This document shows positions 3,501 through 16,307 of a stretch of 64,000 nt of DNA, piece by piece (positions within the stretch are counted from its first letter, which is position 1; each line of letters begins with the position of its first letter). Source of the stretch: Micromonospora polyrhachis (GTDB lineage: Bacteria > Actinomycetota > Actinomycetes > Mycobacteriales > Micromonosporaceae); contig NZ_JACHJW010000001.1 in the NCBI RefSeq assembly GCF_014203835.1, positions 5,778,501-5,842,500 of the forward strand, read 5' to 3'. Under the pieces are notes generated by a model. The model was not told the DNA's origin. It did not search any database and was given only the letters and a program-made list of their open reading frames with translations. A program made the translations under genes and the position numbers.

Positions 3501-3881
3501 CCGGATCAACTGGAGCCGCAGCAGCGGCCCGGCGGCCAGGTCGAAGGGAGCCTGGCTGGTCGTGTCGACCAGTTCGGCCCGCCGTCGCTCCAGGTCGGCC
3601 GGTGGCAGGTCGGCGAGGTCGGTGACGGTGAGCCGGATCGCCCAGGGTTGCTGGATCCGTTGCGCCGGCTCGCCGTCGACGGCGGTGAAGGTGGTACGCA
3701 GCGCCTCGTGCCGGTCGACCAGCCAGCTCCACGCGGCTTCCAGGGCGTCATGACGCAGCGGGCCGGTCAGCCGGACCGACCAGGCGATGTTGTATTCCGG
3801 GGAGCCGGGGGTCAGCTGGTCGAGTAGCCACAGTCGACGTTGCGTCGAGGAGGCGGGCAGGACCCAGGTGTCTCCGGTCAT
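510..3881 (-). CDS. Nonribosomal peptide synthetase, one C-A-T module
   Basis: A 1123-residue single-module synthetase. The condensation domain fills about residues 5-440, with catalytic HHIVADG near 140. The adenylation domain spans about 465-960, with YTSGSTGTPK near 622, NGYGPSETT, the MYATGDLARW core and the closing lysine motif GSGKVDRRALP. A carrier domain follows, with its phosphopantetheine serine in GGHSLTAT near 1004. No epimerase, reductase or thioesterase follows, so chain release must be encoded elsewhere. The tail carries four SPDRIA-type hexapeptides and then an acidic helix (LDDLSDGEIDELLNTLI) that could be a docking element. Reading the specificity residues by eye gives roughly D-I-V-Q-I-G-G-I-Y, which I cannot assign. 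The start overlaps the stop of the upstream synthetase as ATGA, and its stop overlaps the monooxygenase start. Confidence 0.95.
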   Translation of the reverse strand: MTGDTWVLPASSTQRRLWLLDQLTPGSPEYNIAWSVRLTGPLRHDALEAAWSWLVDRHEALRTTFTAVDGEPAQRIQQPWAIRLTVTDLADLPPADLERRRAELVDTTSQAPFDLAAGPLLRLQLIRLAADEHLLVVVVHHIVADGWSFNTVFAELGHAYQAAVSRIDPSLPPPPIQYADFAVWQSEQATSDAFAENLEFWRSELAAAPTLLDLPADRPRPAEQTPAGGLATFDLPAELATGVRELAHRADTTTFAVLLSGFQALLHRLSGQDDLLVGVPVSGRTRPETQQVVGFFANTLALRARFEPGTTYGEVLRVARASAVAAQSRQDVPFERVVDLLAPTRSLAYSPVVQVMFALDEPPAPTTVAGLRISPELHENGTVKFDLTLTVEQRPDGLRGRLTYRTDLFDAERMRRFADQYLALLGAAVAAPDTPVAELALLSPAQRQEIIRRWLATPVAVLDSCVPELLDRHPPADPDAVAVVAPDGAQMTYRQLTAASNRLAQLLRAHGVGPDVPVGLCLSRGTDLVTAILAVWKAGGGYLPLDPELPTERLAAMAAEVTPPVLVTDLASAEGTTGAWPAGTRVVRLDDPTDVADLASRPETAPERSGHPASLAYLLYTSGSTGTPKAVVVTHGSVVNLLTAVDRQLCLTSADRMAAITTPAFDISVVELILPLLAGARVELIDARTAVDAAALRAELTSRQITAAQATPATWRMLVAAGGVPAGVRTRISGGEALLRDLADALRTDGATVVNGYGPSETTIYSSIGQVGVTGPVDLGGPVDNTGIYLLDPAGNPVGVDAVGEVYLGGLGVGRGYHGRAGLTAARFRPDPYAGRPGARMYATGDLARWLPSGRLEYLGRADHQIKLRGYRIEPGEIETALREQPQLHDAVVTTWQASADDIRLVGYVVPAEPGAQPAQLWPPVRAALARRLPEYMLPATLVVLDELPRTGSGKVDRRALPEPSWSDGDTEHTAARTPVEERLAALWCEVLGRTEVGVHDNFFALGGHSLTATRLIARIRTAFGVDLPLRLLFAAPTIAELGELVDAPAAGPTRTAEPVRDSTASPDRIASPDRIASPDRIASPDRIAAGRPSPEDLLASLDDLSDGEIDELLNTLIAEEGA
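618..689. repeat. 18-bp tandem repeat, four copies, in NRPS tail
   Basis: Four perfect or near-perfect 18-base units starting at 618, 636, 654 and 672 encode SPDRIA-type hexapeptides between the carrier domain and the C-terminal helix of the synthetase. The period is six codons, so the frame is kept. Confidence 0.95.
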
Positions 3882-6800
3882 GACGTCTCCTCGCTGGTTC
3901 GCTTCGAGGCGGGGTGGCTGTCGCGGGTGTCCACGCTGCCGTGGGTGCCCAGGCCGGGGCGGGTGTCGGAGCGGGGGCGGGAGTCCGCGCTGTCGCGGGT
4001 GTCCACGGCGACCAGGCGGAACTCGGCGGTTCGCCGGCCACCGGCCGGGTCGGTCAGCCAGAGCTGGTCGGGAGAGGGCAGCATCTCGGTCAGTCGCAGG
4101 GTGGCCGTCGGCCCCTCGCCGTCCACCGTGCGCCGGATCGACCGGGCGAACCAGTCGACGGCGGCGAGGCTGGCGAAGTCGAGGAAGAACGGCTTCTTCT
4201 CCACCGGTGTCTTGACGAAGACGTACCGGGGCAGGCCAGCGGCCAGTTGCCAGCGGCGCACCTGCTGGAACCGTTCCGCCTCGTCGGCGGTACGGGCGAA
4301 GTCCAGTTCGGCCGCCCGGAACCGCCAGCTCTCCCGGGCGATGGTGACCCGGTCCACGGTGATCCGTGGCTGGTGGTCACCGGGGGGCAGGATGTCGAAG
4401 CGTTGCAGCAGTTGCAACATGATCGTCTCGCCGATCATCTCGGTGAACGGCACCGAGTGACGGCCGTCGCGGGTACGAACCACGAGCGTCCCGTCCCGGG
4501 GTTCGAGCACGCAGTCGGCGACCGCCGCCGCGGTCTTCGGGTCGAGCCCGCCGCTGTCGTGGCCGAACATCAGCCGCAGGTCGCGCTCGGTGATCAGCTT
4601 GTCGGTGATCCGGGACGGCGCTCCGCCCTCCTCGCCCGTGGCGGCCAGCGCCACCCGGGGACCGGGTAGGTCCGCCCGCATCGCCGCCACCAGCTGCTCC
4701 GGGTCGGGATGCTGGGCCACGAACAGCGCCGAGCGCAGGGTGTTCACCCCGGGGTGCACCTCGCCGACCACCCACTGGAAGTCGCCTCGGGCCACGGCTT
4801 CGGCCCCGTCGGCGACCAGCATGACGTCGGGACTGTGCTGGTAGGCGCCCATCCAGCCGGGTCGGGGCGCGGCGAACGCGGTGGCCGCCCGGTCGGCGAT
4901 CGCCGCCGAGTCGACCTGCACCCGACGTTGGCCGGCGAGCTCCGGCAGGATGCTCGCCCAACGGTCCCGCAGCCCGCGTACCACCGGGGCGATCAGCTTC
5001 TCCGGCAGGTCGAAGAGGAGGTCGTTGGCCCAGAGCCAGAAGTCGGTGAACGGCACCGAGGTCTGGCCGGTCCGGGCGACCAGCTCCTTGTAGCGTTCGA
5101 CGCAGGCCCGGCGGAACAGGGCGGCCCCGGCGAAGGTGAACCAGCGGGCACTCTCCAGCAGCAGGCTCAACGCCGGCCAGAGGGTGGCGGTCAACTCCGG
5201 GGAGAGCCCGACCTCGGTGCCGGAACGGCAGTCCTCGTAGACCAGGGTGCGTCCGGCGTACACCCGTCCGGCCCGCCTGGTCGGGGCCGCTCCGGTCAAC
5301 TCGGTGAAGGTCTGTTCCAGGCCGACCAGGGCGGCACCGAGCCGGTCGGCGTCCCCAGCCGCCGCCGCGACGGTGTCCCGGGCCTGCTCCAGTCGGTCGA
5401 GGGCGGCCAGGGCCGGGCCGCTTACGGCGGGATCGGTCACGGTGGCGAGCCGGTCCCGCAGCGCTCGTTCGGGGAAGAGGTCCTCTTTGGGGATCTCCAG
5501 CGACCAGCTCACCCGGCGGGTGTCGCGTAGCTCGGCCAGCAGTTGGTAGACCGCCTCCGGAGTGGAGACCTCCACCGTCGGGTCGGCCACCAGCTCGGCG
5601 GCGATCTCACCGGCTGACCGGATCCCGTCACAGGCGGCCAGCAGCCGGGCCACGGCGTGCGGCAGGGGCGTGGGTGGGGTCAGCGGAAGCAGTAGCTGGT
5701 CGTCGAGGACGGCGAGGAAGGGCAGCCGGCGGGGGATCAGCCAGGGCCGCAGCCGGGGATCGCGGTCGGCCAGCGCCTCCGCCAGGCCGGCCACCGCCCA
5801 GTTCTCGAAATAGACGGTACGGGTGGCCAACGAAGCGACCCCGTGTCGCATCCGTAGCGGGGTGTCCTGATGGGGGGCGACGGTAGCCCAGCCCACCGGT
5901 CCGAAGAAGCCGATCGTGTCGTTCTTGGCGCAGTAGCGCTGCAGATAGCTGGCGACCAGCGCCTCGTGCTGGCGATGTTTCGAGCCGCGGGCGGCACCGT
6001 CGGCCGGGTCGTGGGCAAGTAGGGCGTCGATCCCGGTCCGCAGCGCGTGGCGGTTCTGCCAGGTCACCGCCTCCCGGAAGAGGGGGTCACCGGCGGCGGC
6101 CCGTAAGCCCTGCGAGCGGCGGACACTCGCCTGTTCGTGGGACCGGTCGAAGGTGAGCCGGTCGGTGTGCAGCCGGTCGCGGGCGGCGGCGAGGTCGGCG
6201 ACCGCCATCGACAGCGCCTCGCGCAGCGCCGGGTCGGCGGCCTCGGGCAGTGCCTCCGGCAGGCTGCCCTGGCGTACCTGCCGGTCGGCGCGGTTCCACC
6301 GGGATCGCTGTTCCGGTGAACCGGCCCGGCGGGCCTGGTAGAGCAGGTCGGTCAGCCGTCGGCGGGCGGCATCCACCTGGTCCACGCTGGCCAGTACGGC
6401 ATCCGTGGCGGCCAGATGGTCGAGGTCACCCAACCGGGTCAGCGGCTCCACCGGGAAGCCCGCCCCGCGTAGCCCCACCCAGCGCCACATCGCCCACGGG
6501 CCGGGAATCGGCCGGACCAGGTGGCCCGGGGCCGGGGAAACAACGGTTCCGGCATTACCGGCTGTGTCGTTGGCGTCGGCGGTGCCGTGTCCGATTCTGC
6601 CGCTGCCGCTGCCGCTGCCGCTGCCGCTGCCGCTGGTGTTGGTGTTGGTGTTGGCGTGGACCTGACCGTTGGCCGAGTCGGTGGCCGGGCCGGTGCGCAG
6701 GTAGGCACTCCGGTCCCGGGCGGTGATCCTCGGGGCGGTGCCGGCTCCGGTGCCGGCGTGTGCGGTGCGTCGCCGGTCGATCTCGGCCGCCAAGCCGGCC

Positions 6801-9800
6801 AGCTCGTGCTGGTCGTACACCACCCGGATGGGCAACTCGACGCCGAACCGTTCGCTCACCAGGAAGGTCAGCCGGGTGGCGAGCAGCGAGTTGCCACCCA
6901 GGGCGAAGAAGTCGTCGCCGGCATCGCGTACCGCCACCCCGAGCAGTTCGCTCCACAGTGCCGCCAGTCGGGTCTGGGTGGCGTCGGTGAGCGGTACGAC
7001 CGGCGGGGCCGGTGCGGTGGTGGGCGCGGGTAGCGCCGCCCGGTCGACCTTGCCGTTGCGGTTGAGGGGCAATTCCGGCAGGACGAGGTACGCGGCCGGC
7101 CGCAGGTAGGGCGGCAGGTGGGCGGCGGCGTACGCGTCGAGGTCGGCCGGTGCCACCGGCTCCGGCCCGGCCCCGCTACCCGGCGCGAGATAGGCGAGCA
7201 GCCGGCGGCGCTCCCCGTCGCCGTCGACCACCACGGCCACGTCACCGACCCGGGGGTGGGTACGCAGCACCGCCTCGACCTCGGCGGGCTCCACCCGGAA
7301 GCCCCGGATCTTGACCTGTCGGTCGATCCGGCCAAGGAACTCCAGCGTGCCGTCGGGACGCCACCGCACCCGGTCTCCGGTGCGGTACATCCGCGCTCCC
7401 GGGCTGTGGGCGAACGGGTCGGGCAGGAAGCGTTCCGCGGTCGCGGCGGGGCGACCGAGGTAGCCCCGGGCCAGCCCGTCGCCCCCGGTGAAGAGTTCCC
7501 CGGGGACGCCCACCGGCACCGGTCGGAGTTGGGAATCGAGGACGTAGACGGTGCTGCGGGGAACCGGCCGACCGATCGGGACCGAATCGGGTACGGCGTC
7601 CGGGTCGGTCATCCGGTGGCAGCAGGTGAAGGTGGTGTTCTCGGTCGGGCCGTACCCGTTGACGACCGGCCGACCCCGGCGGACCCGCAGCGCGGTGCGG
7701 ACCGCGTCGGCGTCGAGTACGTCGCCACCGGCGAGCAGTTGACCGACCCCGGCCAGACTCCCCGGGTCCTGCTCGATGATCTGGTGGAACAGCCCGGCGG
7801 TCAGCCAGAGCACGCTGACCTGTTCGGCGCGGAGCAGCCGGGTGATCTCGGCGGGGCCGAGCGGTCCGGCCGGTGCGACGACCAGTCGAGCGCCGTTGAG
7901 CAGGCTGCCCCAGATTTCCAGGGTGGCGGCGTCGAAGGCGACCGGCGCGAGTTGCAGGACCGTCTCGTCGGGGCCGAGACGTAGGTAGTCCGGCTCGTGG
8001 ACCAGCCGCAGTACCGCCCGGTGCGGTACGGCCACTCCCTTGGGCACCCCGGTTGATCCGGAGGTGTGGCTGATGTAGGCGAGCCCGGCCGGGGGCACCG
8101 CCACCGCCGGAGCCACCGGGGGCAGGGCGGCCAACTCGGTGACGACCTGGTCGAGTCGGATGGTCGGGTGGCCGGGCGGCAGCGGGACGGCGGCTTCGTC
8201 GGTGGTGACCACCGGTGGATCGCCGCTGCTGGCCAGTAGGTCCCGGATCCGGGTCGGTGGGTCGGCCGGATCGAGGGGCAGGTAGGCCGCGCCGGCCTTG
8301 AGTACGGCGAGCAGGGCGGTCACCATCCGTACCGACCGGGGTAGGGCGACCGCCACCGGGTGGTCCGTGCGGATTTCGTGCCGGATCAGCAGGTGTGCCA
8401 GGCGGTTGGCCTGGGCGTCGAGTTCGGCGTACGTCAGCGTCCCGTCCGGTCCGGTGACCGCCACGGCGTCCGGGCTTCTCCGGACCTGGGCGGCGAACCG
8501 CTCGGGGATGTTGCTGTCGGCCGGGTAGGGCGTCGGGGCGGCCCGCGTTGAGTCGGCCGGGTAGGGCGTCGGGGCGGCTCCGGCCCACTCGCTGGTGAGC
8601 TGCTCGATCTCCTCGGCGTCGAGCAGCGGCAGCGCCGAGACCGGGGCGTCGAGTCCGGCGGCGATCCCGGTCAGGCAGGTGGTCAGGTGGTGCAGTAGAC
8701 GATCGGCGGCGTTATCGGAGAACCGTCGCCGGTCGTGGTAGATCAGCACCTGTAGGTCGGGCTCGCCGAACACGCAGACGGTCAGCGGTGCGCCGGGGTG
8801 CCGATGGACCCGTGTGGTGCGTTCGGCCCAGCCGTCGACCGAGGCGGAGAGCGCGGTCTGTAGGTTGCGGTGCTCGTACATCAGCAGGCTCTCGAAGAGC
8901 GGGCTGGCCGAAGGGAGGCCGAGCCACTGCCCGATGGCGGGTAGCGGGGTGAGCTGGTGACCGCGGATCGTGTCGATCTGGGCCCGTACGTCGACCAGCC
9001 AGTTTCGTACGGTCTGTCGGGAGTCGACGGTGATCCGCATCGGCACCGTGTTGATCATCAGGCCGACGATCGTGTCGGCCTGCTCGATCGTCCCCTGGCG
9101 ACAGGTCCGGGTCGCGCCGAACACCACGTCGTCCCCGCCGCCGTAGCGGTGCAGTAGCAGCGCCCAGGCGGCGGTGACCAGGGTGCCGAGCGGTACGCCG
9201 ACCGCCGTTGCGGCAGCCGCCAGTTCGGCGCGGGCGGTCCGGCTGAGGGTGGTGGTGATTTCCCGGACCGAGTCCGGCGTACGGGGTGGCAGTTCGGCGG
9301 CCGGCTGTAGCGGCAGTGGCGTAGGCAGGGGGAGGTGGGCCAGTTGGGTGCGCCAGAATTCCCGGTCGTCGGCCAGGTCTCGCCGGCTCGCCCAGACGGC
9401 GAACTCCTGGAAGGAGCGTCGGGCCGGGGGCGTGAAGGCGGTGCCCTGGCACAGCGCCCGGTATTCGTCGAGGACCTCGTGGAGTAGCAGATGGATGGAG
9501 CGACCGTCCAACACGGCGTGGTGCAGGCTGAACACCACGGTGTGTCGGTCAGCGGCATGGTCGACGACGCTTACCCGGACCAGCGGGGCGGTCGACGGGT
9601 CGAACTCACGGGACCGGTCTGCGGTGAGGAGGTCCGTCAGGCGCGTGGCCCGGTGCTCGGGGGCGTCGGCTGACCAGTCGTATCGTTCGATGGGGAGGGT
9701 CACCCGGGGGTGGACCTGCTGGATCGTCTCGCCGTGCTGCCAGGTGAACGCGGTACGCAGCACCGCGTGTCGATCGGCGGCGTGCTGCCACGCGGTGGCG

Positions 9801-10006
9801 AAGCTGGCCGGGTCCAGGGGCTCCGGCCAGTCGATGACCACCTGGATGATGTCGACGCCGGAACCGGGCTCGTACTGGTTGTGGAAGAGGAGGCCCTGCT
9901 GCACCGCGAGCGCCTCGTAGGACTCGATCGCGGGTTGGGCAGTCACGGTGGTCGGTTGGTCTCCGTCAATCGCGGAAACACCACTGGTCGTCGACCACAC
10001 GGTCAT
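3878..10006 (-). CDS. Hybrid NRPS (C-A-T) fused to LanB-like lantibiotic dehydratase domain
   Basis: The start is ATG at 10006, preceded by AAGGAGGA (10009-10016); an upstream in-frame extension lacks a better site. The 2042 residues hold a condensation domain (about 27-450, HHAVLDG near 160), an adenylation domain (about 500-985, [11 protein letters not shown] near 649) and a carrier domain (GGNSLLAT near 1039). A Thr/Asn and Gly/Ser linker (about 1090-1170) leads to an approximately 830-residue domain of the LanB dehydratase family, marked by [17 protein letters not shown] near 1364. The SpaB-type elimination domain of full lantibiotic dehydratases is not evident. In that family the N-terminal domain transfers glutamate or another amino acid from aminoacyl-tRNA, and PEARL ligases use the same fold. 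The adenylation pocket read by eye, D-A-L-W-L-G-G-T-F, is valine-like. It is probably first in its operon. What the fused domain does is unknown. Confidence 0.92.
6599..6660. repeat. Hexanucleotide tract encoding the Gly-Ser linker
   Basis: About six repeats of a six-base GCCGCT-type unit encode alternating Ser-Gly on the minus strand. They are followed by three GGTGTT units encoding Asn-Thr. The tract sits exactly between the carrier domain and the LanB-like domain, so it behaves as a flexible inter-domain linker and is a slippage-prone site. Confidence 0.9.
8515..8586. repeat. 36-bp direct duplication between C and A domains
   Basis: A twelve-residue unit containing [10 protein letters not shown] is duplicated in tandem in the linker between the condensation and adenylation domains of the hybrid synthetase. 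The period is 36 bases and the frame is preserved. Confidence 0.85.
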
Positions 10007-10688: not shown

Positions 10689-10790
10689 GGGGGCACACTC
10701 CACATGCGGCTCAGCTGCCTGGGACGGTGGCTGCCGACTATACATCGATCCGGTACGCGTGGAGTTGGTTGATGATCGGCCGAACGGTCT

Positions 10791-10820
10791 CGGACACGAG
10801 TTTTTCGGACACGAGTTTTT
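10791..10820. repeat. 15-bp tandem direct repeat before rapZ
   Basis: CGGACACGAGTTTTT occurs twice head to tail (10791-10805 and 10806-10820), just before the predicted rapZ start. It could be a duplicated regulator site or simply a slippage product. Confidence 0.8.
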
Positions 10821-10830
10821 TGGGGGCCAG

Positions 10831-11754
10831 GTGACGAGCGAGATGGTCGGAACACCCGAGACTGGGAAGTCGGCGGTCGTGCCGTCGAACCGGTCGGACA
10901 TGACACTCGTGGTGGTCACCGGAGTCTCCGGCGGTGGTCGCAGCACCGTGGCGCGAGCGCTGGAGAACGTCAACTTCTACGTGGTGGACAACCTGCCGCA
11001 GGCGTTGCTACTCGATATGGCCGAACTGGCCTTTCGGGCCGGCGGTGCGGCCCGTAACACCGCGATGGTGCTCGACGTACGCAGCCGGGCCTTCTCGACT
11101 GATCTGGCCGGGGCGATCCGCGATCTCAAGGGCCGCGGCTTCCAGCCCCGGGTGGTCTTCGTCGACGCCGATGACGAAGTGCTGATTCGGCGGTTCGAGA
11201 GCGTACGACGGTCGCACCCGCTGCAGGGTGACGGGCGGCTCGCCGACGGCATCGCGGTCGAACGTGGCCTGCTGGCGGAGGCGCGGGAACAGGCCGATGT
11301 GATCATCGACACCAGTCATCTCAACGTCAACCAGCTCCGGAGTCGGGTGGAGGAGCTTTTCGGCGGCGAGGACGCTCGCCGGTTGCGGGTGACCGTCCTC
11401 TCCTTCGGCTTCAAGTACGGCCTACCGCCGGATGCAGACTTTGTCCTTGATGCCAGATTCCTTCCGAATCCGTACTGGGTGCCAGAACTGCGCGAGCACA
11501 CCGGGCGCGAAGAGGAGGTGAGTCGGTACGTTCTCGGCCAGAATGGCGCGGTGCCGTTCGTGGAGTCGTACGTCCGCCTGATCAATGCAACCGTGCCCGG
11601 GTTCGAACGGGAGGGAAAGCGCTACCTGACCGTGGCGGTGGGCTGCACCGGGGGGAAACACCGCAGTGTGGCGATCGCGGAGGAACTGGCGTCCCAACTG
11701 CGGCATGCCCGACTCGCGGCCAACGCCCAGCACCGCGACCTGGGGCGCGAATGA
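10831..11754 (+). CDS. rapZ: RapZ/YvcJ family nucleotide-binding protein
   Basis: The predicted protein has 307 residues. The N-terminal P-loop GVSGGGRST (residues 31-39) has Arg where Walker A usually has Lys, which I believe is usual in actinobacterial members. The C-terminal RapZ domain ends with GCTGGKHRSV. In E. coli RapZ is an RNA adaptor controlling the glmZ/glmS circuit; in actinobacteria it heads the rapZ-yvcK-whiA block and its role is less clear. I chose GTG at 10831 because GGGGG lies just upstream; ATG at 10843 is the alternative. The stop overlaps the yvcK start as ATGA. uvrC, which commonly precedes rapZ in actinobacteria, is replaced here by the peptide cluster. Confidence 0.93.
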   Translation: MTSEMVGTPETGKSAVVPSNRSDMTLVVVTGVSGGGRSTVARALENVNFYVVDNLPQALLLDMAELAFRAGGAARNTAMVLDVRSRAFSTDLAGAIRDLKGRGFQPRVVFVDADDEVLIRRFESVRRSHPLQGDGRLADGIAVERGLLAEAREQADVIIDTSHLNVNQLRSRVEELFGGEDARRLRVTVLSFGFKYGLPPDADFVLDARFLPNPYWVPELREHTGREEEVSRYVLGQNGAVPFVESYVRLINATVPGFEREGKRYLTVAVGCTGGKHRSVAIAEELASQLRHARLAANAQHRDLGRE

Positions 11755-12728
11755 CGGCGCGAAGGGTGGTCGCGTTCGGGGGTGGCCACGGGCTCTCGGC
11801 GTCCCTACGGGCGCTGCGGCACTGCACGCCGGAACTCGACCTGGACATCACCGCCGTGGTGACGGTGGGCGACGACGGTGGCTCCAGCGGTCGGCTACGG
11901 GCCGAGCGAGGGGCACTGCCCCCGGGTGATCTGCGGCAGGCGCTGGTGGCGTTGGCCGGCGACCACCCGGCCACCCGGCGCAGCGCCGACCTGTTGCAGT
12001 ACCGCTTCGCCGCACCAGCCGCCGGCGCGGCGGCCGACGACTCGTTGGCCGGCCACGCGGTCGGCAACCTCGTGTTGTGTGGGCTGATGGAGCTACTGGG
12101 CGACCCGGTGGCTGCCCTCGACCATGCCGCCGCCATGCTCGGTGCGGTCGGGCGGGTCCTGCCCATGTCCTGCCAGCCGGTGGGGATCGAGGCCGAGGTG
12201 CGCGGCGCCGTACCCGAGCGACCCGACGAGGTGCGGACCGTACGCGGTCAGCACCAGGTGGCCGTGACGACCGGCCGGGTTGAATCGTTGCGATTGGTGC
12301 CGGCCGACCCTGCGGCGTGTCGGGAGGCGGTCGCGGCGGTTGGCGCGGCCGACTGGTTGATCTTCGGTCCGGGCAGTTGGTACACCAGCGTCCTGCCGCA
12401 TCTGCTGGTGCCCGAACTGGCCCGGGCGATCGTGGCCAGCCCCGCCCGCCGGCTGGTCACCCTGAACCTTGCGGCAGAGAAGGAGACCCTTGGGCTGTCA
12501 GTCGCCGATCATCTCGCGGCACTGCGGTGGTACCTGCCCGAACTGCGGGTGGATCTGGTGCTGGCCGACGGGAAGGCGGTGGGGGAACCAGAACCCGTAG
12601 AGCGTGCGGCAGAATCGCTGGGTGCCCGTCTCGTGCTCGCCCCAGTGGCCGTCTTGGACGGCACGCCCCGACATGATCCAGCCGCGCTGGGGGCCGCGCT
12701 GGTGCCTGTCCTGGGCGCCGATCGTTAA
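11751..12728 (+). CDS. yvcK: YvcK/CofD-like gluconeogenesis factor
   Basis: A 325-residue protein of the YvcK branch of the CofD-like family. It opens with the nucleotide-binding glycine motif GGGHGLSASLRAL and has the conserved VGDDGGSSGRLR near residue 42. Bacillus and mycobacterial YvcK (CuvA) bind UDP-sugars and are needed for normal cell wall and growth on gluconeogenic carbon. It is not the F420 enzyme CofD itself, because it sits in the conserved rapZ-yvcK-whiA block. The ATG overlaps the rapZ stop, implying coupled translation. The following whiA starts 55 bases downstream. Confidence 0.93.
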   Translation: MTARRVVAFGGGHGLSASLRALRHCTPELDLDITAVVTVGDDGGSSGRLRAERGALPPGDLRQALVALAGDHPATRRSADLLQYRFAAPAAGAAADDSLAGHAVGNLVLCGLMELLGDPVAALDHAAAMLGAVGRVLPMSCQPVGIEAEVRGAVPERPDEVRTVRGQHQVAVTTGRVESLRLVPADPAACREAVAAVGAADWLIFGPGSWYTSVLPHLLVPELARAIVASPARRLVTLNLAAEKETLGLSVADHLAALRWYLPELRVDLVLADGKAVGEPEPVERAAESLGARLVLAPVAVLDGTPRHDPAALGAALVPVLGADR

Positions 12729-12783
12729 GCACGTACGAACAACCGGCAGCATGCCGGAAACCGGCCCGTGAGGTGACGACAGA

Positions 12784-13764
12784 ATGGCGATGACGGCTGC
12801 GGTCAAGGACGAGCTGAGCCGCGTGGACGTGCCCAAACCCTGCTGCCGTCGGGCGGAGATGGCCGCCCTGCTGCGGTTCGCGGGCGGACTGCACATCGTT
12901 TCCGGTCGGGTCGTGGTGGAGGCGGAACTCGATACCGGAGCGGTCGCCCGACGCCTGCGTCGGGAGGTCGCCGACGTGTACGGCTACCCGAGCGAAATCC
13001 ACGTGCTCGCCCCCGGTGGACTGCGTAAGGGCAGCCACTACATCGTGCGGGTGGTCAAGGACGGCGAGGCCCTGGCCCGCCAGACCGGCCTGCTCGACGT
13101 GCGGGGACGGCCGGTGCGGGGTCTGCCACCCCACGTCGTGGCCGCCAACGTCTGCTGTGCGGTGGCGGCCTGGCGGGGTGCGTTCATGGCCCACGGCTCG
13201 CTGACCGAGCCCGGCCGGTCCTGCGCGCTGGAGATCACCTGCCCGGGGCCGGAATCGGCGCTGGCACTGGTCGGGGCGGCCCGCCGGATCGGCATCACGG
13301 CCAAGTTCCGCGAAGTGCGGGGCGTGGATCGGGTGGTCGTCAAGGACGGTGACGCGATTTCCGCGTTGCTCACCCGGATCGGCGCGCACTCCAGCGTGCT
13401 GGCCTGGGAGGAACGCCGGGTACGCCGCGAGGTGCGGGCCACCGCCAATCGACTGGCCAACTTCGACGATGCCAACCTGCGGCGCTCGGCGCGTGCGGCG
13501 GTGGCCGCCGCCGCCCGGGTCACCCGGGCTCTGGAGATCCTCGCCGACGACGCGCCCAACCACCTGACCTCCGCCGGAGAACTGCGACTCAAGCACCGGC
13601 AGGCCTCGCTCGAAGAACTGGGCGCGCTCGCCGACCCGCCGCTGACCAAGGACGCGATCGCCGGCCGGATCCGCCGGCTGCTGGCCCTGGCCGACAAGCG
13701 CGCCCGGGACCTGGGAATCCCGGACACCGAAGCCGCCGTCACCCCGGACATGCTCGTGGTCTGA
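12784..13764 (+). CDS. whiA: WhiA sporulation/division transcription regulator
   Basis: A 326-residue WhiA protein. It has an N-terminal homing-endonuclease-like (LAGLIDADG fold) region without nuclease function, and a C-terminal helix-turn-helix region around [18 protein letters not shown]. In Streptomyces WhiA works with WhiB to switch growth to sporulation septation; outside sporulating genera it influences division. The start ATG has GAGGTGA about eight bases upstream. A second in-frame ATG lies two codons later. It closes the rapZ-yvcK-whiA block and is followed by a perfect 10-bp hairpin at 13809. Confidence 0.95.
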
Positions 13765-13808
13765 CCGGGTGGTCGAGCCGGGTCGAGCCGGGATCCCCGA
13801 CCGCGCAG

Positions 13809-13838
13809 ATCCGGCCCGGCGAAACCGTCGGGCCGGAT
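13809..13838 (+). terminator. Hairpin terminator after whiA
   Basis: The arms ATCCGGCCCG and CGGGCCGGAT pair perfectly over 10 bp around a ten-base loop. No U-tract follows, which is common for actinobacterial terminators. It separates whiA from gap. Confidence 0.7.
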
Positions 13839-13876
13839 TATGCCCCGACGCAGCGCGGCGCGGCTCGCTCCGATAG

Positions 13877-15070
<1,194 letters not shown>

Positions 15071-15107
15071 GCGTGCGGACCGTGTTCGTGAGCGGAGGGT
15101 CGGCACG

Positions 15108-16307
15108 GTGAGTATTCGTACCCTCGACGATCTCCTTGCCGAGGGTGTCTCAGGTCGGCGCGTGTTGGTGCGCGCCGACCTGAACGTGCCCATTGACAAG
15201 GAGTCCGGCGCCATCGCCGACGACGGTCGGATCCGCGCGGTGCTGCCGACCTTGACCGCGCTCCGGGAGGCCGGCGCGGTGGTCGTCGTCTGCTCGCACC
15301 TGGGCCGCCCGAAGGGTGCGCCGGACCCGAAGTACACCCTCGCGCCGGTTGCCACCCGGCTCGGCGAGCTGATCGACGCGCCGGTCGCGTTCGCGTCGGA
15401 CACCGTCGGGGAGTCGGCTCGGAGCACGGTCGACGCGCTGACCGTCGGGCAGGTGGCCCTGCTGGAGAACCTCCGGTTCAACCCGGGGGAGACCAGCAAG
15501 GACGCCGCCGAGCGGGAGGCTTTCGCCGACCAACTGGCCGGCCTCGCCGAGGCGTACGTGGATGACGCCTTCGGCGCGGTGCACCGCAAGCACGCCAGTG
15601 TCTACGACGTACCGGCCCGGCTGCCGAACTTTGCCGGCCGGCTGGTGCTGCGGGAGGTCGAGGTGCTGTCCCGGCTGACCGGGGAGCCGGACCGGCCGTA
15701 CGTCGTGGTGCTCGGCGGCTCGAAGGTCTCCGACAAGCTCGCGGTGATCGAGGCGCTGCTGCCGAAGGTCGACCGGCTGTTGATCGGCGGCGGGATGTGT
15801 TTCACCTTCCTCAAGGCCCAGGGCCACGAGGTGGGCACCTCGCTGCTCGAAGAGGAGATGCTCGACACCTGCCGGGATCTGCTTGCTCGGGCCGACGGTC
15901 GGATCGTGTTGCCGGTCGACGTGGTGGCCGCCACCGCGTTCGCCCCGGACGCCACGCACGACGTGGTGGCCGCTGACGCGATCCCGCCGAACCGACTCGG
16001 TCTGGACATCGGGCCGCGCAGCGTGGCGGAGTTCGCCGAGGTGATCTCCGGGGCGCGGACGGTCTTCTGGAACGGCCCGATGGGTGTGTTCGAGATGCCC
16101 GCCTTCGCAGCCGGCACCAAGGGCGTCGCCGAGGCGATCACTGCGGTCGACGGCTTCACGGTGGTCGGCGGCGGTGACTCGGCAGCGGCGGTACGCGCGC
16201 TGGGCCTGGACGAGTCCTCGTTCGGGCACATCTCGACCGGCGGGGGTGCCTCGCTGGAATACCTGGAGGGCAAGACCCTCCCCGGTGTCGCCGCTCTGGA
16301 GAAGTGA
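15108..16307 (+). CDS. pgk: Phosphoglycerate kinase
   Basis: The 399-residue glycolytic kinase converts 1,3-bisphosphoglycerate and ADP to 3-phosphoglycerate and ATP. The N-terminal substrate loop [11 protein letters not shown], the CSHLGRPKG motif and the C-terminal [12 protein letters not shown] nucleotide region are all present, and the length is normal. The start is GTG, 37 bases after gap. Its stop is followed at once by a GTGAGCGG-type sequence resembling the repeat near zwf. Confidence 0.97.

Follow-up and report, generated by a model that had tools for sequence, protein, structure and literature searches.

A nonribosomal peptide synthetase module fused to a LanB-type domain in Micromonospora polyrhachis suggests an assembly line that grows its peptide from both ends

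Peptide aminoacyl-tRNA ligases (PEARLs) activate a free carboxylate and then join it to the amine of an aminoacyl-tRNA. The closest worked-out system found for the gene described here is the SnaA/SnaE pair of the threopeptin pathway, in which a urea bridge between two amino acids, set head to head by a condensation (C) domain of signature EHHxxHDG, leaves a free carboxylate which the nonribosomal peptide synthetase (NRPS) line cannot extend, and at which SnaE adds threonine (PMC11212132). That paper leaves open whether SnaE works on a carrier-bound or a free intermediate; about two thousand clusters of NRPSs or polyketide synthases are said there to carry LanB-like genes, and LanB-like fusions to thiolation (T) or thioesterase domains are mentioned in one sentence (PMC11212132). 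In livipeptin biosynthesis, a leucyl/phenylalanyl-tRNA transferase (L/F transferase) works with an NRPS that lacks the C domain, some pairs being apparently fused (PMC10548850). PEARLs, an NRPS-linked PEARL, LanB-like fusions to T or thioesterase domains and apparent fusions of L/F transferases to NRPSs are already known; apart from SnaE, our literature search turned up no NRPS-linked PEARL whose role has been worked out. Here we analyse a stretch of 64,000 nucleotides (the window) of the genome of Micromonospora polyrhachis (assembly GCF_014203835.1, contig NZ_JACHJW010000001.1, positions 5,778,501 to 5,842,500). A minus-strand gene at window positions 3878-10006 encodes a C-adenylation (A)-T module and a LanB-type domain in one protein. 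The fusion is real and conserved, and it is probably a functional chain-reversing initiation module.

A preceding description of this DNA from its letters alone (the sequence-only reading) had given the gene these coordinates, which are right, and had proposed that a C-A-T module is joined in one reading frame to a complete LanB-like domain without an elimination domain. One open frame of 2042 codons indeed holds all Pfam domains, namely Condensation (3.5e-65), AMP-binding with its C-terminal part (2.4e-77), PP-binding (1.1e-12) and, in three stretches, Lant_dehydr_N (1.7e-26). The HHxxxDG motif, the core motifs of the A domain and the carrier serine are all present, as is the LanB marker singled out in that reading, which begins at window position 5935 and reads downward. 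The elimination domain PF14028 was not listed for the protein (Pfam, E ≤ 1), nor was it found in 17 neighbouring or paralogous proteins (E ≤ 0.001). A frame or assembly error at 6590-6700, which would separate the two parts, is very unlikely because the two halves agree in coding bias (0.76/0.51/0.88 and 0.76/0.53/0.90 G+C at the three codon positions), the source genome is assembled as one contig of 7.15 Mb, and the C-A-T-LanB order recurs in other genomes. An artefact was therefore rejected, and the C-A-T module and the LanB-type domain are confirmed as one true fusion protein.

The AlphaFold2 model of the 848-residue domain, based on a 34-sequence alignment, has a mean predicted local distance difference test score of 91.3. 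TbtB is its best structural match (Foldseek 1.2e-26; VIA Z 22.5, root mean square deviation (rmsd) 4.6 over 723 residues), and MibB, MadB, NisB and GodF likewise match along nearly the whole domain. Judged from the model and its full-length matches, the LanB glutamylation-domain fold is complete, as had been claimed, and comes without an elimination domain. Searching the PDB with the single LanB domain by phmmer yielded nothing at E ≤ 1; a profile search did give matches. No NCBIfam family was listed for the domain alone at E ≤ 0.01, and the 16 plasmid records matching it are all below 60% identity. Descent of PEARLs from the ATP-grasp glutathione synthetase family has been proposed (PMC11117183), and the human and potato glutathione synthetases match model residues 231-848 (Z 6.9 and 6.4; rmsd 5.8 over 277 and 5.5 over 264 residues), Z values below 8 being weak on their own. 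Residues 260-348 of the domain (window 5495-5761) adopt a fold like that of a recognition element (RRE) of ribosomally synthesized and post-translationally modified peptides (RiPPs), as indicated by PqqD (5sxy, Z 6.9; profile match 0.0071). This segment might bind the carrier domain or the linker, no ribosomal precursor having been recognised.

Positions that mark PEARLs have been described for TglB, namely residue 542, printed as Asp in PMC11117183 and as Glu in PMC11962472, and Arg803, Glu801 having a counterpart in split LanBs (PMC11117183, PMC11962472). Arg743 and Phe783 of TbtB form an adenine-holding pair (PMC11117183, PMC11962472), and Y205 and R208 of BhaBC-Trp belong to the site of the tRNA 3'-CCA end (PMC11962472). 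The residues matched to them in the fusion protein are listed in Table 1 in protein and domain numbering. R735 and F774 (domain numbering) were placed by HMMER alignment to 6ec7, assuming a chain numbering offset of three residues; the spacing of E839-x-R841 equals that of Glu801-x-Arg803, and the distance from D571 to E593 equals that from 542 to 564 in TglB. D571, E593, H595, R735, F774, E839 and R841 are invariant in the family (34/34 sequences). For comparison, LanBs from 30 loci of the same bacterial family were used, called canonical from near-full-length PF04738 matches; all 30 have Glu in the E839 column, but none has Arg in the R841 column or Asp in the D571 column. The C-terminal columns were read from a profile-profile alignment together with motif columns. 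It superseded a first MAFFT placement, unreliable at the C-terminus, that had put Arg at column 841 in 29/30 comparison LanBs. The tRNA-binding residues, for which the sequence-only reading had suggested looking, are kept at the matched positions (R201 in 34/34, Y198 in 33/34), and so are those of the ATP site. Since R201 and Y198 also occur in 30/30 comparison LanBs, they would indicate that tRNA is used at all, without setting PEARLs apart. Presence of the PEARL-specific Asp and Arg in 34/34 sequences versus 0/30 comparison LanBs makes it rather likely that the LanB-type domain is a PEARL-type ligase and not a dehydratase.

Table 1. Features of the fusion gene, its protein and the adjoining genes (window coordinates)
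Feature	Position	Strand	Basis or remark
Predicted C-A-T-PEARL fusion protein, 2042 aa	3878..10006	minus	single open frame; ATG at 10006, stop 3878-3880
Condensation domain, type named C*, motif LHHAVLDGR	8594..9922	minus	Pfam, motif, C-domain tree
Adenylation domain, specificity code DALWLGGTFK (taken to be valine-like)	7049..8497	minus	Pfam, code extraction
Thiolation (carrier) domain, GGNSL, Ser1040 at 6887-6889	6782..6970	minus	Pfam
Low-complexity linker, Gly/Ser and Asn/Thr runs	6539..6781	minus	sequence
LanB/PEARL-type domain, 848 residues modelled	3995..6538	minus	Pfam, alignment, AlphaFold2 model, structure matches
Y1354 and R1357 (domain Y198, R201)	5936..5947	minus	Y-x-x-R pattern matched to BhaBC-Trp Y205/R208
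D1727, E1749, H1751 (domain D571, E593, H595), presumed ATP/Mg site	4754..4828	minus	D matched to TglB 542
R1891 and F1930 (domain R735, F774)	4217..4336	minus	matched to TbtB Arg743/Phe783
E1995-x-R1997 (domain E839, R841)	4016..4024	minus	matched to TglB Glu801/Arg803; Arg PEARL-specific
Next module, C-A-T, 1123 aa	510..3881	minus	overlaps fusion gene by 4 bases
Kynurenine 3-monooxygenase gene start, 459 aa	1..513	minus	leaves window; full gene L014:1134-2513

The C domain of the fusion protein was tested for the ureido type by means of the EHHxxHDG signature, which reportedly seems to be both required and enough for a ureido link to form (PMC11212132). Its HHAVLDG is preceded by L, so the signature is absent and a ureido-type C domain was rejected. 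Fused genes, the window included, gave 27 C domains, of which 24 instead have the motif [FL]HH..[LI]DGR; the other three are two ureido types and one gene at a contig edge, in which the motif was not found. In the C-domain tree, all 24 domains of this type, named C*, form one group with six unfused DGR domains and four others (99% support; 88% for the 30 DGR rows by themselves), and the ureido C domains fall among ordinary ones. A search of 200 genomes of the family with the window C domain, with at most eight candidates scored per genome, gave 15 best hits (≥228 bits, query included), to which the count of LanB linkage applies, and 40 further hits below 228 bits. Of the 15, 13 are fused to LanB, one of them inferred across two contig ends, and one (L091) is adjacent to it; an unlinked C*-A piece (L194:7840-9678) looks like a remnant. 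C* has Arg directly after HHxx(L/I)DG, a place held by Trp in 90 of the 106 other C domains whose motif could be read, and this Arg could pair with a carboxylate of the donor. The specificity codes of the line are DALWLGGTFK, DIVQIGGIYK, DILQLGCVWK and DAGDMGHVCK; the first we take to be valine-like, the code positions as well as their meaning being assumed. Similar A codes (DALWLGGTFK, DAWWLGGTFK) occur in fused genes of both C types.

Fused genes were counted in 40 regions from relatives of the same family and in 78 named loci (best 80 of 413 relatives), some loci being the same places as among the regions. They are present in 13 of the regions, one of them cut by a contig end, and in 17 of the loci, which comprise five of Micromonospora, one of Salinispora pacifica, eight of Saccharothrix, one of Actinophytocola gossypii and two other actinobacterial metagenome-assembled genomes (MAGs). 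One of the 17 is split into C-A and T-LanB (Saccharothrix luteola, L124), and two break off at a contig end before reaching the C domain; Stackebrandtia is not among the 78 loci. There are relatives with LanB parts 69-76% identical, the distance from T to the LanB match is 10-86 residues in 13 fused relatives, and each fused gene read is followed by C-A-T, except that at L130 the contig stops after C-A. Of 394 genomes sampled across the class, one had the fused type, namely that of M. polyrhachis itself (E ≤ 1e-200, scoring only two candidates in each genome), so fusions of this type seem to be uncommon beyond a few families.

From the simple Gly-Ser linker, a recent fusion had been deduced, which does not agree with the distribution. 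In a rapidly built tree with 144 different LanB rows, all 30 fused rows, which come from at least two families, share one group of 34 with four stand-alone rows (99% by the Shimodaira-Hasegawa-like approximate likelihood ratio test), and the genome of M. polyrhachis itself holds a second C-A-T-LanB gene, followed by C-A-T (L011), whose LanB part is 52% identical to that of the window; a recent fusion was thus rejected. L085 and L086, from two genera (L137 duplicates the L085 locus), have the order A-T-C-A-T-LanB with EHHFVHDG and EHHFIHDG, respectively. Since they group in the LanB tree with the window-type fusions L130 and L132 (L132 being cut before its C domain), one PEARL lineage would operate behind either C type. 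Just outside the fused group lie L126, a Ktedonobacteraceae MAG in which a C-A-T gene sharing this C motif comes after a separate LanB gene, and L091/L152, with a C*-A-T gene next to LanB in opposite direction. The partnership of C* and PEARL may be older than the fusion, as the two genes are adjacent yet unfused in these places. The side-by-side arrangement of L126 (8938-14753) perhaps represents a pre-fusion state; L152 (Salinispora pacifica CNR114) and its relative L091 (same place as L157) have a stand-alone LanB and a divergent C*-A-T with FHHSVLDGR.

The fusion gene is the head of a tight minus-strand row which exits the window at its left edge. It is followed, in this order, by genes for C-A-T, kynurenine 3-monooxygenase (KMO; best PDB match Kynurenine 3-monooxygenase, 8.3e-92), a DUF6875 protein (4.4e-67), C-A-T, C-A-T with a terminal NAD_binding_4 reductase (R), a major facilitator superfamily (MFS) transporter and an O-methyltransferase. 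Haem binding and an ability to oxidise L-tryptophan have been described for DUF6875 proteins, together with a motif common to C-7 hydroxylases (PMC13307353). The NRPS line thus comprises four modules with reductive release, and probably a tryptophan-derived building block. KMO and DUF6875 genes are both present at 20 of the 28 fused loci scanned, within flanks reaching 9-10 kb or to the contig end, as well as in the window. No RiPP precursor gene was recognised in the row, whose genes overlap or abut and leave little room, in the course of an analysis that included no dedicated precursor search. About 750 bases away on the other side, a plus-strand housekeeping block begins (RapZ, YvcK, WhiA, GAPDH, phosphoglycerate kinase; 10759-16307), so the cluster seems to end at the fusion gene. 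The second copy (L011:7843-16741, C1:7079842-7088740) is preceded by MFS and MbtH genes and followed by its C-A-T gene, beyond which lie a gene whose 241-aa product matches no Pfam family and then NRPS open frames of great length. Elsewhere in this genome (L012:11787-17194, about C1:6947800-6953200), a tandem pair of stand-alone LanB/PEARL-like genes stands beside A-T-C-T NRPS genes, and a similar pair occurs in the relatives L101, L105, L107, L108, L109 and L196.

Fusion, fold, conserved residues, gene set and the linkage of C* to PEARL are read directly from the sequence. On balance we lean towards the view that the protein is the chain-reversing initiation module of a four-module NRPS line. 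Its A domain would load a valine-like residue on the T domain, and C* would acylate the amine of this residue with a group bearing a carboxylate at its far end, replacing the ureido link of the SnaA type. As one PEARL lineage seems to sit behind either C type, with similar A codes, the simplest reading is that C* makes an N-terminal cap ending in a carboxylate. Its donor would probably be a small dicarboxylate as CoA ester; a dicarboxyl-CoA appears likeliest because the row showed no recognisable loading module or gene for making a cap. The side-chain carboxylate of the module-1 residue was set aside as PEARL substrate, the A code being aliphatic by the mapping we assume. To judge from its residues, the fused PEARL would phosphorylate the cap carboxylate with ATP and join it to the amine of an aminoacyl-tRNA, the tRNA then being hydrolysed off, while the gene order suggests that the thioester end would pass forwards through C-A-T, C-A-T and C-A-T-R to reductive release. 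The DUF6875 haem-type protein, KMO and the O-methyltransferase may supply or tailor a tryptophan-derived residue. Activity, cap, tRNA and product are predictions. Growth of the peptide in two directions on one chain, with an undescribed C class HHxx(L/I)DGR making a non-ureido carboxylate cap, is a tentative proposal, to which we would give somewhat short of an even chance. The recurrence of a module joined to a tRNA-using ligase in other soil actinobacteria suggests an assembly line that grows its peptide from both ends.

Several points weigh against a chain-reversing module. The PEARL residues were matched via TbtB, published numbering and spacing, with no sequence of TglB, BhaB, AmmB or SnaE aligned, and the canonical status of the 30 comparison LanBs rests on PF04738 matches, not on their elimination domains. 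Since the four stand-alone members of the fused group (L087, L088, L089, L111) have no NRPS domain in their 20-kb stretches except weak A-domain matches (L088), other substrates are conceivable for the PEARL domain. Among the 15 best C* hits, the C*-A piece of G059 (L194:7840-9678) has no LanB match in its 20-kb stretch. The best PDB scores of C* are to the C domains of PvdL and McyB, for neither of which do we know of dicarboxylate use. KMO and DUF6875 were not seen at 8 of the 28 fused loci, several with short flanks, nor in the stretches scanned around the second copy of M. polyrhachis, so the products would differ between subclades. Finally, no cap-making gene was recognised in the operon, and the dicarboxyl-CoA donor is one that we infer.

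Among the alternatives, it is rather unlikely that the PEARL acts late, on a released product or on an intermediate of another protein, the fusion merely co-localising the two. The question of a carrier-bound or free substrate, left open for SnaE (PMC11212132), and the four stand-alone members of the same group are compatible with late action. However, 30 of the 34 group rows retain the fusion with the first carrier, and this fusion is tied to particular C-domain types. The sequence-only reading had envisaged that aminoacyl-tRNA is used on a carrier-bound valine-like residue. Of this, the link between tRNA and carrier stands, as does the valine-like code on our assumed assignment; the target shifts from the amine of valine to the carboxylate of the cap because PEARL chemistry activates a free carboxylate. 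SnaE, the most relevant precedent, is not named in that reading. If the amine were the target after all, the LanB-like domain would replace the condensation step and transfer the tRNA-borne residue as L/F transferases appear to do for livipeptin, another tRNA-using family that cooperates with NRPSs and appears fused to them in places (PMC10548850). We consider this unlikely, although the residues matched to the tRNA site are kept: the invariant PEARL-specific ATP/carboxylate residues would be useless for acylating an amine, the C domain is retained in all fused genes not cut by a contig end (in L124, in the preceding open frame), and for fused relatives of the ureido type a free carboxylate, rather than a free amine, is predicted. 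Off-loading is quite improbable. The amine of aminoacyl-tRNA would take the chain off the T-domain thioester, and tRNA hydrolysis would leave a peptide extended at its C-terminus. In the 13 fused relatives that were measured the PEARL domain comes after T, which would suit this, but further C-A-T modules follow, the window and G067 clusters have a terminal reductase module, and the residues of the ATP site are conserved although a thioester requires no ATP. That the domain is a glutamyl transferase of dehydratase type, or an inactive remnant serving as docking platform through its RRE-like fold, is suggested by the Pfam name Lant_dehydr_N and by matches of residues 260-348 to PqqD and other peptide-binding domains, but is highly improbable given PEARL-type residues invariant at all matched catalytic positions (34/34), an elimination domain missing from the protein and from the 17 neighbouring or paralogous proteins, and a module-1 A code that, as we assign it, is not a Ser/Thr code.

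With the chain-reversing module as the favoured reading, annotating these genes as dehydratases would mispredict their products, and the link to a particular C-domain type provides a sequence rule for finding more chain-reversing modules. In the literature, judged from the titles and abstract openings listed, no description of a C-A-T-PEARL protein was found, nor were the conserved architecture, the single-chain ureido variant, the own C type or the KMO/DUF6875 gene set found described.

Compared with known systems, the LanB-type domain resembles the split LanB TbtB and the class I dehydratases MibB and NisB (6ec8, 5ehk, 4wd9) in fold along nearly its whole length and shares the adenine-binding Arg/Phe of TbtB, but it has the PEARL-specific Asp and Arg, and no elimination domain or partner was found. 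With the scaffold-peptide PEARLs TglB, BhaB and AmmB (PMC11962472, PMC11117183), it has in common the fold family, the lack of an elimination domain and the matched ATP- and tRNA-site residues; these enzymes extend ribosomally made carrier peptides, whereas here, where no dedicated precursor search was made, the genes overlap or abut and no precursor gene was recognised. The livipeptin system (PMC10548850) likewise ties a tRNA-using enzyme, in places apparently by fusion, to an NRPS with a reductase domain, but that enzyme belongs to another family and replaces the C domain, which is kept here. The SnaA/SnaE system of Stackebrandtia nassauensis (PMC11212132) has a LanB-like PEARL working with an NRPS in a proposed extension of a free carboxylate where the chain begins. 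SnaE stands on its own, whereas here C-A-T and PEARL form one chain, so that purifying this one protein is enough to test on which intermediate the PEARL acts. The window type moreover differs from SnaA in having neither the ureido signature in its C domain nor a loading A-T, while the fused genes of L085 and L086 agree with SnaA in both the A-T-Curea-A-T order and the EHHxxHDG motif, and thus combine SnaA-like and SnaE-like parts in one chain.

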